In this document: in pieces, positions 24,271 through 30,056 of the stretch
Position numbering within the stretch: position 1 is the first letter of the stretch
How the letters are laid out: the number at the start of each line of letters is the position of its first letter
Position numbers and translations under genes: made by a program
IMG/VR virus record: IMGVR_UViG_3300046007_009942
Location: 1-30,056 of that record
DNA length: 30,056 nt
Origin: a virus
Strand: one strand, 5' to 3'
The notes under the pieces: generated by a model
The model's database searches: none
Told to the model about the DNA's origin: nothing
Seen by the model: the letters and a program-made list of their open reading frames with translations, nothing else

Positions 24271-24627
24271 ATGAAACAACAACTCAACGAAGAATTTAAA
24301 AGAATGCAAAAACTAGCAGGCATTGTTAATGAATCTCAACCAGATGAAGCTATTGATAGCCAAATATTAGATAAATTTATTGATATTTTTGATACATCTG
24401 AGGGATACCAAGGCCCTTTAGACTCAGGAACAGAACGTAGCGTAATAGTAGATATAAATGATTATATAGAAGATGGTGAAGAGGAATATGAAAATGAAAT
24501 AGACATTTTTAATAAATGTTATGAGTATCTTCAAAGTAAAGGAGGAAAAATATATTATCCAAAATATAAAACAACTTTTGAAATAATAAGTCAAAATGAA
24601 ATAGAATATTCTTGGAAACAAGAATAA
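24271..24627 (+). CDS. Small acidic protein with N-terminal leader-like motif
   Basis: The product has 118 residues. The N-terminus MKQQLNEEFKRMQKLAGIVNE is basic and amphipathic, in sharp contrast to the rest, which is very acidic (IEDGEEEYENEIDI, about 67-80). I recall similar (F/L)xRMQKLAGI-type tags on unrelated proteins of marine T4-like phages. They contain Leu-x-Glu cleavage-type triplets, so a capsid-targeting leader is a reasonable guess. The downstream half includes strands FEIISQNEIEYSW. It stands alone between a promoter-like element and the strong terminator at 24691, so it may be a single-gene transcript. Function unknown. Confidence 0.6.
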   Translation: MKQQLNEEFKRMQKLAGIVNESQPDEAIDSQILDKFIDIFDTSEGYQGPLDSGTERSVIVDINDYIEDGEEEYENEIDIFNKCYEYLQSKGGKIYYPKYKTTFEIISQNEIEYSWKQE

Positions 24628-24775: not shown

Positions 24776-26074
24776 ATGAATAATAAGAAAATTGTAATTA
24801 TTGGAGCAGGAGTAGCAGGCATTAATGCTGCCACTAAATTAATAGATAAAGGATACTCTGGAGGTCTTATCACTATTATTGATAAAGGAAGTGATCCATT
24901 CAAACGTAAGCCTGAGGAAGTTATGACAGGTATGCTAGGAGCAGGAGGATGGAGTGATGGTAAACTAACATACCATACTGCTATTGGAGGTCAACTTTCA
25001 AAATATTGTGGTGAGGAAAAAGCCATGGAGTTAATGAAAGAAGTTGTGGATAATTTCACTCGTTTTCATCCTAAACCAGAGGAAATCTTTATGTCTGACC
25101 CACAAGAAGAACCTGAATTTATTAAACCATATTTTGGGTTACGTTTATTCCCAGTATGGCATATTGGTTCAAATTATTTACATGAAATTGCTAAAAATTG
25201 GTATCAATATTTAATTGATAGAGGAGTTAAATTTATGTGGGAAACCGAGGTTCTAGATGTTAATTTTAGAACATGTTCTGTATGGTTCACTGGAGGACAG
25301 ATATTTTACGATTCTTTAATATTTGGAGCAGGTAAATCAGGTATTGATTTTACTCAACAACTATCTACTAAATATAAATTACCTACAGAACCAAAATCAG
25401 TTCAAATTGGAGTTAGGTACGAGGCACCACAAAAATACTTTCAAAAACTAATTGACATTAGTTATGACTTTAAACTATATCAAAAATTTGATAATGTAAG
25501 TTTACGCTCATTCTGTACTAACAATAACGCTGCTTATGTTGCTGTGGAAGAAACTTATGGTGATATTAGTTACAATGGTCATGCTAAAAAAGGAGAACAA
25601 TTCCGAAACGATATGACCAATTTTGGTATTTTGATGGAAATTAAAGGCATTAAAAACCCATTTGAATGGTCAAGAGAAGCAGTTAAAAAACTCCAAATCA
25701 ATGGTACTGGAACCTACTATTCACCAAACCGTACTCGTAAACCAGCCTTAACTTCAGAGGGTAATACAGTATCAGCCATTCAAGTTGATACAATGGATCC
25801 TTTATTTGATGCATTAGGAGAAGAGTATGCCCAATATATTGAAGATTTTATTACAAATCTACAAACAGTATTTCCTGAGATAGGAGATGATTGGGGTATT
25901 TATATGCCTGAAGTAAAATATTTAAGTCCTGAACCTCTTGTTAATTATAATAATCTATCTTTGACAGAATATCCTAATGTTCATTTTGTAGGAGATGCAT
26001 TAAGTGCTAGAGGAATTACAGTAAGTGGAGCTCATGGTATTTATGTAGCTGAAGCTATTACAAGAGGCTTCTAG
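24776..26074 (+). CDS. FAD-dependent dehydrogenase (COG2509-like)
   Basis: The product has 432 residues. An N-terminal Rossmann motif VIIGAGVAGINAA (7-19) binds FAD. GMLGAGGWSDGKLT (about 52-65) is the hallmark of the uncharacterised COG2509 dehydrogenases, normally G-A-GT-SDGKL. SFCTNNNAAYVAVE and ISYNGHAKKG (about 240-275) parallel the FCMCPGG...VVNGMS segment of that family. The C-terminal VHFVGDALSARGITVSGAHGI is the second FAD contact. The family CMCPGG cysteines are partly replaced (only one Cys, SFCTN). It is transcribed alone after a strong terminator, from an A/T-rich region. It is an unusual enzyme for a phage; substrate unknown. Confidence 0.8.
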   Translation: MNNKKIVIIGAGVAGINAATKLIDKGYSGGLITIIDKGSDPFKRKPEEVMTGMLGAGGWSDGKLTYHTAIGGQLSKYCGEEKAMELMKEVVDNFTRFHPKPEEIFMSDPQEEPEFIKPYFGLRLFPVWHIGSNYLHEIAKNWYQYLIDRGVKFMWETEVLDVNFRTCSVWFTGGQIFYDSLIFGAGKSGIDFTQQLSTKYKLPTEPKSVQIGVRYEAPQKYFQKLIDISYDFKLYQKFDNVSLRSFCTNNNAAYVAVEETYGDISYNGHAKKGEQFRNDMTNFGILMEIKGIKNPFEWSREAVKKLQINGTGTYYSPNRTRKPALTSEGNTVSAIQVDTMDPLFDALGEEYAQYIEDFITNLQTVFPEIGDDWGIYMPEVKYLSPEPLVNYNNLSLTEYPNVHFVGDALSARGITVSGAHGIYVAEAITRGF

Positions 26075-27642: not shown

Positions 27643-28434
27643 ATGATTAAACTAACTGATTTATTAAAAGAAATCCAATCTAGCCCCAAAGCATTGCTAT
27701 TAGCAGGTGCTCCTGGGGCTGGAAAGGGTTCTATTCTAAATAATTTAGGTTTAGATAATATAAAAACTCTTAATGTTGATGATACTATTATAGCATTATC
27801 TAAAGAAATGGGTTTTACTCTAGACCAAAAACAAGCAGATGCTGATGATAGGAGTAAATATGCTCAAGCCATGGCTCAAGCCACTCAAAAGTTAAAAAAA
27901 GAGCAACTCCCTAACATTATTTCCAACCGTGAGTCTTTTATCCTAGATGGAACATCAGCCTCCTCTAAGCAAACTTCTGAACTTAAATCTCAATTAGAAT
28001 CAGCAGGGTATGAGGTTATGATGTTATATGTTTATACTGATTTAACAACATCATTAACACGTAATCAAGAAAGATTTATCAAATCCAAAGGACAAGATAG
28101 AAGTTTAAATCCAAATATAGTTTTAAGAACATGGAATGAAGTGACTAAAAACTTCAATACATATAAACAAATGTTTGGTAATAATTTTATATCGGTATCA
28201 AATACTGGAGAAAAAGAAAATATAAAGGATATTGAAGATATTTTACAAACATATGTTGATCCTTTTAGACCAACAGATTCTAAACCTAAAACAGATAAAG
28301 AAATAGAAAAAATTGAACAATTATATTCTGATACTCAAAATCTTCTCCTTTCAAATATAACTAAAGAAATCATCCAGTCCTCTTTATCTAAGGAACAAGC
28401 CCAATCCAAAATTAAATCATTCTTCAATAAATGA
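27643..28434 (+). CDS. P-loop kinase (zeta-toxin/AAA_33-like) with leader peptide
   Basis: The product has 263 residues. P-loop GAPGAGKGS (22-30) is followed by a strand and NVDD (44-47), in the positions where zeta-toxin and polynucleotide/nucleoside kinases hold their catalytic Asp. FILDGTSAS (near 105-113) and VYTDLTTSLTRNQERF carry further kinase-style elements, including a possible lid arginine. The first ten residues MIKLTDLLKE, with L-x-E, look like an added leader rather than part of the kinase fold. A charged C-terminal tail (about 210-263) is probably helical. The stop overlaps the next start (ATGA), coupling it to the multidomain protein. The phosphorylated substrate is not evident; possibilities are a nucleotide, a nucleotide-sugar or an RNA 5' end. 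Confidence 0.75.
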   Translation: MIKLTDLLKEIQSSPKALLLAGAPGAGKGSILNNLGLDNIKTLNVDDTIIALSKEMGFTLDQKQADADDRSKYAQAMAQATQKLKKEQLPNIISNRESFILDGTSASSKQTSELKSQLESAGYEVMMLYVYTDLTTSLTRNQERFIKSKGQDRSLNPNIVLRTWNEVTKNFNTYKQMFGNNFISVSNTGEKENIKDIEDILQTYVDPFRPTDSKPKTDKEIEKIEQLYSDTQNLLLSNITKEIIQSSLSKEQAQSKIKSFFNK

Positions 28435-30056
28435 ATAAAATATCATATATATTAGCTAATGAAATATTAAAAGATAATACAACTTTAATATATGGAGGAG
28501 GATTTAAACCTCCTACTAAAGGTCATTTAGCAGTAGTTAAACAATCTTTAGAAAAATATCCTCAGGTAAATAAATACATTATATTTGTAGGATCAGGTAC
28601 TAGAGATGGAATTACCCAAGACCAAGCAGTCCAAGTATGGAACATTTATAAAAAATATCTTCCAGTCAATATGGAAGTTATCCCTGTCCCTTCTCCTATT
28701 AAATCTGTGTTTGATTATTCAAAAGAAAATCCAGATGAAAATATCATATGGATTATAGGAGGGAGACAAGGAAATGAAGATGATTTAAAAGATTTTGTAA
28801 ATCGTACGAAAACAATTGAAAAATACCCTAATATAACTGCTACTAACATTATTACCCCTATATCCAATATTAGTGGTACTAAAGCAAGACAAGCACTAAA
28901 ATCTGGTGATAAATCTGAAATAATAACTTACTTTCCATCCGATATCTCCGAAGATATTGAAAAAATTATAGACATCACTACCCCAGATTTAATAAATGAG
29001 GCTGAAGAATTTGATAAAGTGGATTATTATACTTCATTTATCACTAATGTAGTCCCATCTGATTTTAATGTTTTTAGAGAAGAAAATAGAATCATAGTAG
29101 ATAATATTTTAAATGATACTCAAGAAAATGTGGCCCCTAATCATAAAGGTAAGTCATCTCCATATGGATCAGGGTATAAGAAATTAAATGAAAATACTAT
29201 ACCCTCTATTGATGTAATGCAAAAATGTGCTGAATTAACTCAGCATATGATTGAAAAAGGATTCAATATTAAACCTCTACCATCAGTTAAATTTATAGGT
29301 GATGATGTATCCAATGCAGAAAATTTCTTAGGTAAGACTGCTCATTATGACCCAAATAAAAAAACAATTGTAGTATATACTTATGGGCGTCACCCTAAAG
29401 ATATTGTGCGTTCTTTTTCTCATGAAATGATTCATCACATGCAAAATATTGAAGGTAGATTAGGTGATATTTCTACTACAAATACTCTAGAAGATGATCA
29501 TATAAATAATTTAGAAAAAGAAGCTAATTTGAAAGGCACAATGACATTTAGAAATTGGACTGATAGTTTAAATGAAAAGAAAAATAAAGACCCATTTGGT
29601 ATAAATCAATATGCCCGGGAATTAGCTCAAGGACTAGAAGAACAATCTCAAAATTATGTCATATACTGTGATATGGATGGAGTTATTGCTGACTTTGATA
29701 AAAGATTTATGGAATTAGCCAAAATGAGTCCTGATCAGTATGAACAAAAATATGGTATTGAACAGTTCTGGAATTTTATAGACAATAAAATCGGAGTAAG
29801 ATTTTGGGTAGGGATTCCATGGATGCAAGATGGAAAACAACTATGGGAATATATCAAAAAATATAAACCAACACTACTCTCAGCTCCTTCCCGTAATAAT
29901 GAATCTAGGTTAGGAAAAAGACTATGGGTAAAAAAACATATTCCTGGTGCTAAACTTATATTAGCATCACGAGCTAATAAACAAGATTACTCTAAACCCA
30001 ATGCTATTTTAATTGATGATAGGCCTGATACTATCATAGAATGGGAAAATAAGGGA
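28431..30056 (+). CDS. Multidomain protein: HIGH nucleotidyltransferase, HExxH zincin, HAD nucleotidase (incomplete)
   Basis: At least 542 residues; open to the window edge with no stop seen. Residues 19-32 (LIYGGGFKPPTKGH) are the TxGH form of the HIGH motif of NadD/CoaD-type adenylyl- or cytidylyltransferases, completed by ISGTKAR (147-153). Residues 331-336 (HEMIHH) are an HExxH zinc-protease site with EKEAN about 35 residues later as possible third ligand. From 410 a HAD domain shows YCDMDGVIADF (D414, D416), LLSAPSR (motif II Ser), LWVKKHIP (motif III Lys) and AILIDDRPD (motif IV), resembling 5'(3')-deoxyribonucleotidases. The 4-base overlap couples it to the kinase. Nucleotide or NAD salvage, or RNA-end repair, are the candidate roles. 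Confidence 0.8.
   Translation, partial: MNKISYILANEILKDNTTLIYGGGFKPPTKGHLAVVKQSLEKYPQVNKYIIFVGSGTRDGITQDQAVQVWNIYKKYLPVNMEVIPVPSPIKSVFDYSKENPDENIIWIIGGRQGNEDDLKDFVNRTKTIEKYPNITATNIITPISNISGTKARQALKSGDKSEIITYFPSDISEDIEKIIDITTPDLINEAEEFDKVDYYTSFITNVVPSDFNVFREENRIIVDNILNDTQENVAPNHKGKSSPYGSGYKKLNENTIPSIDVMQKCAELTQHMIEKGFNIKPLPSVKFIGDDVSNAENFLGKTAHYDPNKKTIVVYTYGRHPKDIVRSFSHEMIHHMQNIEGRLGDISTTNTLEDDHINNLEKEANLKGTMTFRNWTDSLNEKKNKDPFGINQYARELAQGLEEQSQNYVIYCDMDGVIADFDKRFMELAKMSPDQYEQKYGIEQFWNFIDNKIGVRFWVGIPWMQDGKQLWEYIKKYKPTLLSAPSRNNESRLGKRLWVKKHIPGAKLILASRANKQDYSKPNAILIDDRPDTIIEWENKG

Follow-up and report, generated by a model that had tools for sequence, protein, structure and literature searches.

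We report a phage gene in which three enzyme domains, a nucleotidyltransferase (NT), a zincin (ZN) and a nucleotidase of the HAD type (HAD), are joined on one chain, and we consider it fairly probable that a T4-like phage packs its product into the head as a cargo polyprotein, which the prohead protease would cut and which would be injected with the DNA. The gene lies at the end of a 30,056-base IMG/VR virus contig (hereafter the window), probably from a T4-like phage with a Bacteroidetes host. Its features, by position in the window and with '^' marking a candidate cut, are as follows.

27643..28434, plus strand: upstream P-loop kinase-like gene, overlapping the start of the fusion ORF (ATGA) and related to HTVC008M gp129
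28431..30056, plus strand: whole visible ORF, 542 codons, 3'-open; 22 further residues known from relatives
28431..28469, plus strand: leader MNKISYILANEIL, a candidate capsid-targeting sequence, weak (ANE^I here, VNE^I in near relatives; disordered in the AlphaFold model)
28488..28904, plus strand: NT, NMNAT/NadD/PPAT-like nucleotidyltransferase, residues 20-158 (Pfam, Foldseek, profile comparison, motifs)
28506-28526, plus strand: KPPTKGH of NT, residues 26-32
28869-28889, plus strand: ISGTKAR of NT, residues 147-153
28992..29000, plus strand: INE^A, candidate cut by the prohead protease after E190 (inferred)
29001..29192, plus strand: disordered linker 191-254 with a SSPYGSGYKK cassette and, at its end, candidate site LNE^N (codon 29190-29192 for E254)
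29220..29570, plus strand: ZN, predicted zincin domain, residues 264-380 (motif, conservation, AlphaFold, Foldseek)
29421-29438, plus strand: HEMIHH of ZN, residues 331-336
29514-29516, plus strand: E362, likely third ligand of ZN
29568..29576, plus strand: LNE^K, candidate cut by the prohead protease after E382 (inferred)
29577..29642, plus strand: linker cassette KKNKDPFGINQYARELAQGLEE with, at its end, candidate site LEE^Q (codon 29640-29642 for E404)
29652..30056, plus strand: HAD, putative NT5C-type nucleotidase, starting at residue 408 and truncated at the window end (PHROG, motifs)
29670-29678, plus strand: DMD of HAD (DMDG, residues 414-417)
29979-29981, plus strand: K517 of HAD
30015-30020, plus strand: DD of HAD (LIDD, residues 527-530)

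Positions 28431-30056 of the plus strand form a single frame of 542 codons, open at the record end, and the same frame is present in five other contigs that are 97-98% identical, which rules out a frameshift or assembly join between the three parts. The first-pass annotation was right that one uninterrupted frame carries a nucleotidyltransferase, an HExxH segment and a HAD domain, with their motifs in place, as a real fusion. Its suggestion that further domains might follow the window edge did not hold, since the full-length relatives are 564 aa long and reach their stop 22 residues beyond the edge with no extra domain. PADLOC gave no match for the window protein.

The fold of NT, together with its (H/T)xGH and ISxTxxR-type motifs, makes it a HIGH-superfamily nucleotidyltransferase of the NMNAT/NadD/PPAT type. 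It matches CTP_transf_like in Pfam (E 1.3e-4) and NadD/PPAT by Foldseek (best E 1.4e-5); among non-redundant relatives the GH, the SGT-type Thr and the Arg are near-invariant, and TKGH and ISGTKAR are kept. We claim no substrate because all curated cutoffs were missed: TIGR00482 scored 28.7 bits against a cutoff of 112.45, every other NCBIfam equivalog model also fell below its cutoff and a sequence search of the PDB gave no significant match, so that assignment as an NMNAT/NadD equivalog was rejected. By profile comparison (hhalign, prob 96.4, E 1.1e-9) NT belongs with the T4-like 'cytidyltransferase' family, and PHROG 3041 matches L058 at 6.5e-10.

The HExxH of ZN and its E362 are near-invariant in non-redundant relatives, the invariance of the former stretch being biased by the use of HEMIHHMQ as a search pattern; independently found zincins of phages B23 (HELVH) and S-SRM01 (HEFIH) keep the motif. 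In an AlphaFold (AF2) model of a 564-aa relative the domain has the element order of a zincin-like fold, and the HExxH helix with a downstream Glu in this predicted fold identifies ZN as a putative zincin metallopeptidase. Pfam M91 (0.006) is below cutoff, and no peptidase family is claimed because the best Foldseek matches, IrrE and selecase, are weak (E 0.01-0.03). The model holds three confident compact domains (pTM 0.37) with residues 189-259 and 401-407 at pLDDT below 50, suggesting beads on a string, three domains on disordered linkers.

HAD matches PHROG 2643, deoxyribonucleotidase (3e-20), and Pfam NT5C at 0.05, below cutoff. All four HAD motifs had been assigned to it at first; the DxD, the Ser of LLSAPS (residues 482-487) and the DD stand, while the Lys of LWVKKH does not, the conserved lysines being K496 and K517. 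In non-redundant relatives D414/D416, K517 and D529/D530 are near-invariant and residue 487 is Ser in 56/60. The spacing of K517 is that of motif III in NT5C enzymes. The DxD, Ser/Thr, Lys and DD, with the family similarity, point to an NT5C-type nucleotidase which, by family, would be a deoxyribonucleotidase.

A scan of viral contigs gave 219 relatives, of which the best 80 were examined. In essentially all of these 80, NT and ZN share a single ORF in fixed order (the ZN ORF of L035 has no detected NT), although this near-universality is partly biased by retrieval, most loci having probably been found through the HEMIHHMQ pattern. HAD forms the C-terminal part of the chain in 18 of 77 loci; in the other 59 it has a gene of its own a short way downstream. 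The HAD tree requires six changes between fused and split states (at least three by well-supported branches), the ZN tree five. The three-enzyme fusion is thus real but optional. The first-pass annotation had proposed searching other phages for the same domain order, which is conserved as NT-ZN-HAD, and had taken homologues with the parts always in separate genes as evidence against a fusion; that describes HAD in most relatives and NT-ZN in almost none. A first full-length alignment (A1), built with domain fragments, was left out because NT was poorly aligned.

Between NT and ZN lie 43-709 aa, and after ZN 0-408 aa, and both stretches hold modules that are exchanged between relatives. Among these are a zinc ribbon, a further zincin with the motif RHEIEH, a nucleotidyltransferase of the pol-beta type and pieces resembling DUF6934 and IrrE, along with the short cassettes AAPYGSGYKK and KDPFGLNQYARELAQGLEE. 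Some cassettes recur in neighbouring proteins encoded at these loci, many of them basic. With NT, ZN, HAD and these inserts, the family has the two or more unrelated catalytic domains in shuffled architectures that define polyvalent proteins, in which unrelated enzymatic domains, including zincins and pol-beta nucleotidyltransferases, are likewise shuffled in one polypeptide (Iyer et al. 2017, PMC5512222). It differs from them in occurring in T4-like phages, whose relatives have stand-alone versions of the parts, and in border sites that point to the prohead protease and not to the embedded zincin. A further module, FTxHFxxR(V/M)xDxRN...TIMRKxNFxT(S/P)NP, occurs as an insert in NT-ZN proteins, in other proteins and as stand-alone genes, and also forms the C-terminus of Sinorhizobium phage phiM12 gp159 (L109 3543-5351; also L110 5905-6354 and L092 2788-3546).

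Within the phage collection the NT-ZN architecture is confined to isolates of Flavobacterium phage immuto. There gp088 has the same NT-ZN order and motifs and gp087, directly after it, is an NT5C-type HAD gene, in a complete genome that also encodes gp21; unlike the window protein, HAD is separate, and gp088 is extended at both ends, by a pol-beta-like segment at the N-terminus and by a second zincin at the C-terminus. That N-terminal nucleotidyltransferase-like segment (GSVKAGSKADFGDLDI) has a similar motif in the adjoining upstream gp089 (GSVGKKDYSGDIDLAL; L002 4263-5171 and 5173-6050). About 85,000 bacterial and archaeal genomes yielded one relative, on a short Flavobacteriales MAG contig that is likely phage, and plasmids matched HAD alone and never the full architecture; on these grounds we rejected the idea that the whole arrangement came from bacteria or plasmids.

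Proteins of the 'cytidyltransferase' family phrog_3041 (S-CREM2 gp154, HTVC008M gp130) have a homologous NT and a similar leader and differ in that, in those examined, the chain lacks both the HEMIHH zincin and HAD. In pelagiphage HTVC008M the gene order is as in the window, with the kinase (E 5e-22), NT and, a few genes on, HAD (3e-31). The combination of activities, at first thought odd, is therefore real as a chain and less odd in context, NT and HAD being neighbours behind the same kinase. Elsewhere, Synechococcus phage S-SRM01 has a zincin gene without a leader just ahead of its cytidyltransferase gene (L288 1441-1839 and 2072-3300), a gene order from which the ZN-NT association may be older than the fusion. 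A dehydrogenase-like protein (window 24776-26074, phrog_12409, starting IVIIGAGVAG) is encoded near the primase and the fusion gene.

The neighbourhood in HTVC008M, where kinase, NT and HAD are all of nucleotide type, would also suit an uncut multifunctional enzyme of nucleotide or NAD salvage in the infected cell, in which fusion gives co-regulation and LxE came to lie at the borders merely through the shuffling of linkers. The repeated fusion and splitting of HAD agrees with this, and phage salvage by NadM/NadR is known (PMC9503650). We nevertheless regard this reading as unlikely: no salvage role fits the zincin, NT lies under every equivalog cutoff, an NT homologue is found in virions, the leaders resemble T4 capsid-targeting sequences in form and the border motif is specific in both residue and spacing.

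The window protein has LxE at each domain border (E190, E254, E382 and E404), with four more LxE inside folded domains. Counts of plain [LI].E over whole linkers gave weak enrichment (z 1.7), and since this was unconvincing the borders were tested against 12 control motifs (seven with another residue in place of E, three with altered spacing, one with a polar P3 and one with the motif reversed). In 39 non-redundant relatives [LIVM].E[AGSNQ], a motif whose restriction to small P1' residues was set after viewing the sequences, occurs in 35 of 67 border segments against 11.0+-2.8 expected from shuffles (z 8.6), while the control motifs gave z of -1.8 to 1.5 (all |z|<2) and the same motif showed no enrichment inside domains. 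Directly before the second-zincin module [LMIV]-x-E^G is found in 19/19 cases, with the x position free. The T4 prohead protease gp21 cleaves after L/I-x-E (PMC9026906), and gp23 of related phages reads AKQIV[SA]E^A or AKQLVVE^Q, that is, V-x-E^A/Q. On sequence grounds, the border motif [LIVM]-x-E^small is likely a prohead-protease site. One gp23 profile match (G003:C1:12249-13727) is reported with two internal TAA codons.

This border signature points to the capsid protease. In place of one enzyme with three activities and a built-in processing part, we now read the chain as a probable head-cargo polyprotein. The middle protease had been proposed as a processing or targeting device; the border sites fit a gp21-type protease better and the targeting element looks to be the N-terminal leader, although some chance of ZN autoprocessing is left. 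ZN need not be a processing device and looks like cargo, because zincins of its type also stand alone, with their own leader in B23-type phages. That a packaged and injected polyvalent protein has its domains released by its own embedded zincin, in line with the zincin-driven processing proposed by Iyer et al. (PMC5512222), we hold to be quite unlikely: HExxH and E362 are conserved and several relatives have two or three zincins, but the border motif matches the known gp21 consensus, the identical motif closes the leaders of NT and HAD proteins that stand alone and have no zincin, and HTVC008M gp130 is an NT without ZN.

Leaders ending in LxE are found in 12 of the 20 NT-ZN proteins with room for one (4.3 expected) and in 24/39 separate HAD genes (4.9 expected). 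Stand-alone NT genes of cyanophages carry MKxFxAFLxE^A (19/19), stand-alone zincins of the B23 type MxYKQFLxE^S (6/6) and pelagiphage-type HAD a leader in 18/24. The T4 proteins IPII and IPIII begin MKTYQEFIAE^A (NC_000866), a known capsid-targeting sequence (PMC9026906). The kinase-like gene upstream of the fusion begins MIKLTDLLKE^I, a leader common to the separate HAD genes of L034 and, nearly so, L035; by analogy with T4, a leader appears to be shared by unrelated cargos. One NT-ZN clade has no leader, its proteins starting directly at the domain, and the S-SRM01 zincin gp257 has none; the window protein's own leader, with ANE^I, is a poor match. In three phages, immuto, G001 and G003, the genes with leaders are concentrated around those for the head, with bins chosen post hoc and p-values that are only indicative. 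Two further leader families were noted: MxxQFxRMQKLAGxI(T/N)E^S on short proteins (window 24271-24627, L092 1275-1739, L090 25061-25456, L004 7927-8301) and M(D/E)NFDLKK(F/Y)LxE^ on other proteins (immuto, G001, G003).

The leader data by themselves would lead one to expect an intact three-domain protein that is packaged and injected with removal of the leader alone, as T4 internal proteins lose propeptides only (PMC5694885) and phage N4 packages its virion RNA polymerase without processing (PMC5512222). LxE also stands between domains, as in the 19/19 cases before the second zincin, and we think intact injection very improbable.

Mass spectrometry of CsCl-purified S-CREM2 virions detected gp154, gp156 and gp160 (PMC10665884); its authors warn that enzymes of this sort could have been co-purified. 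Of these, gp154 is the NT homologue, with the leader MKNFSSFLTE^A; gp156 has a homologue in the pol-beta insert of L027 (E 5e-35, 30% over 220 aa); and gp160 has a short module in common with basic proteins adjoining the NT-ZN genes. For the immuto lineage our literature search of open-licence papers found no virion proteomics. Of 14 records of relatives, 7 encode the gp21 protease (PF03420), the isolate immuto among them with gp070; a search found none in the window or in its near relatives, which are all fragments no longer than about 16 kb.

The preferred reading, a cargo polyprotein cut in the head, has several partial parallels. T4 IPI-III and Alt have short leaders ending in (L/I)xE, a gp21-type protease occurs in related genomes and unrelated cargos stand behind similar leaders; the T4 internal proteins differ in losing propeptides only, whereas the fusion has several enzymes per chain with candidate sites between them. 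The Dar proteins of P1 (DarB, DarA, DdrB) are also packaged in the head, DarB with a capsid-targeting N-terminus, and some are thought to be processed (PMC9024508; PMC5512222), but these are separate large proteins with unrelated domains and a prohead protease, Pro, with HK97-like parallels. The T4 internal-protein and polyvalent-protein kinds are thus known already, and what is probably new is the joining of enzymes with border sites; no description of an enzyme polyprotein cut by a prohead protease was found in the open-licence papers searched.

We propose that the polyprotein would be made late in infection and drawn by its short N-terminal leader into the prohead core, where a gp21-type prohead protease would cut the linkers after [LIV]-x-E (candidates E190, E254, E382 and E404) to give free NT, zincin and nucleotidase. 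The freed enzymes would be retained as the head matures and pass into the host along with the DNA, there to act on nucleotide- or NAD-type metabolites and on a protein; early manipulation of nucleotide or NAD pools is a reasonable guess. A wider proposal, to which we give even chances, is a modular cargo code in T4-like phages, with exchangeable leaders and LxE linker cassettes, enzyme modules that are swapped and a prohead protease that releases the injected set.

If the polyprotein reading is true, the odd enzyme fusion is explained, and a capsid maturation protease separates several packaged enzymes, beyond propeptide removal or scaffold clearing. Short leaders ending in LxE, together with LxE at module borders, would then be a rule for spotting packed, injected phage proteins. 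Injected proteins are a known source of anti-restriction functions, as with T4 Ip1-3 (PMC12373910), and an adenylyltransferase, a nucleotidase and a peptidase delivered by the virion would be candidates for early host takeover or counter-defence. Should the cargo code also hold, this would be a bacterial-virus polyprotein matured by a capsid protease, and its signature would flag many unrecognised injected proteins.
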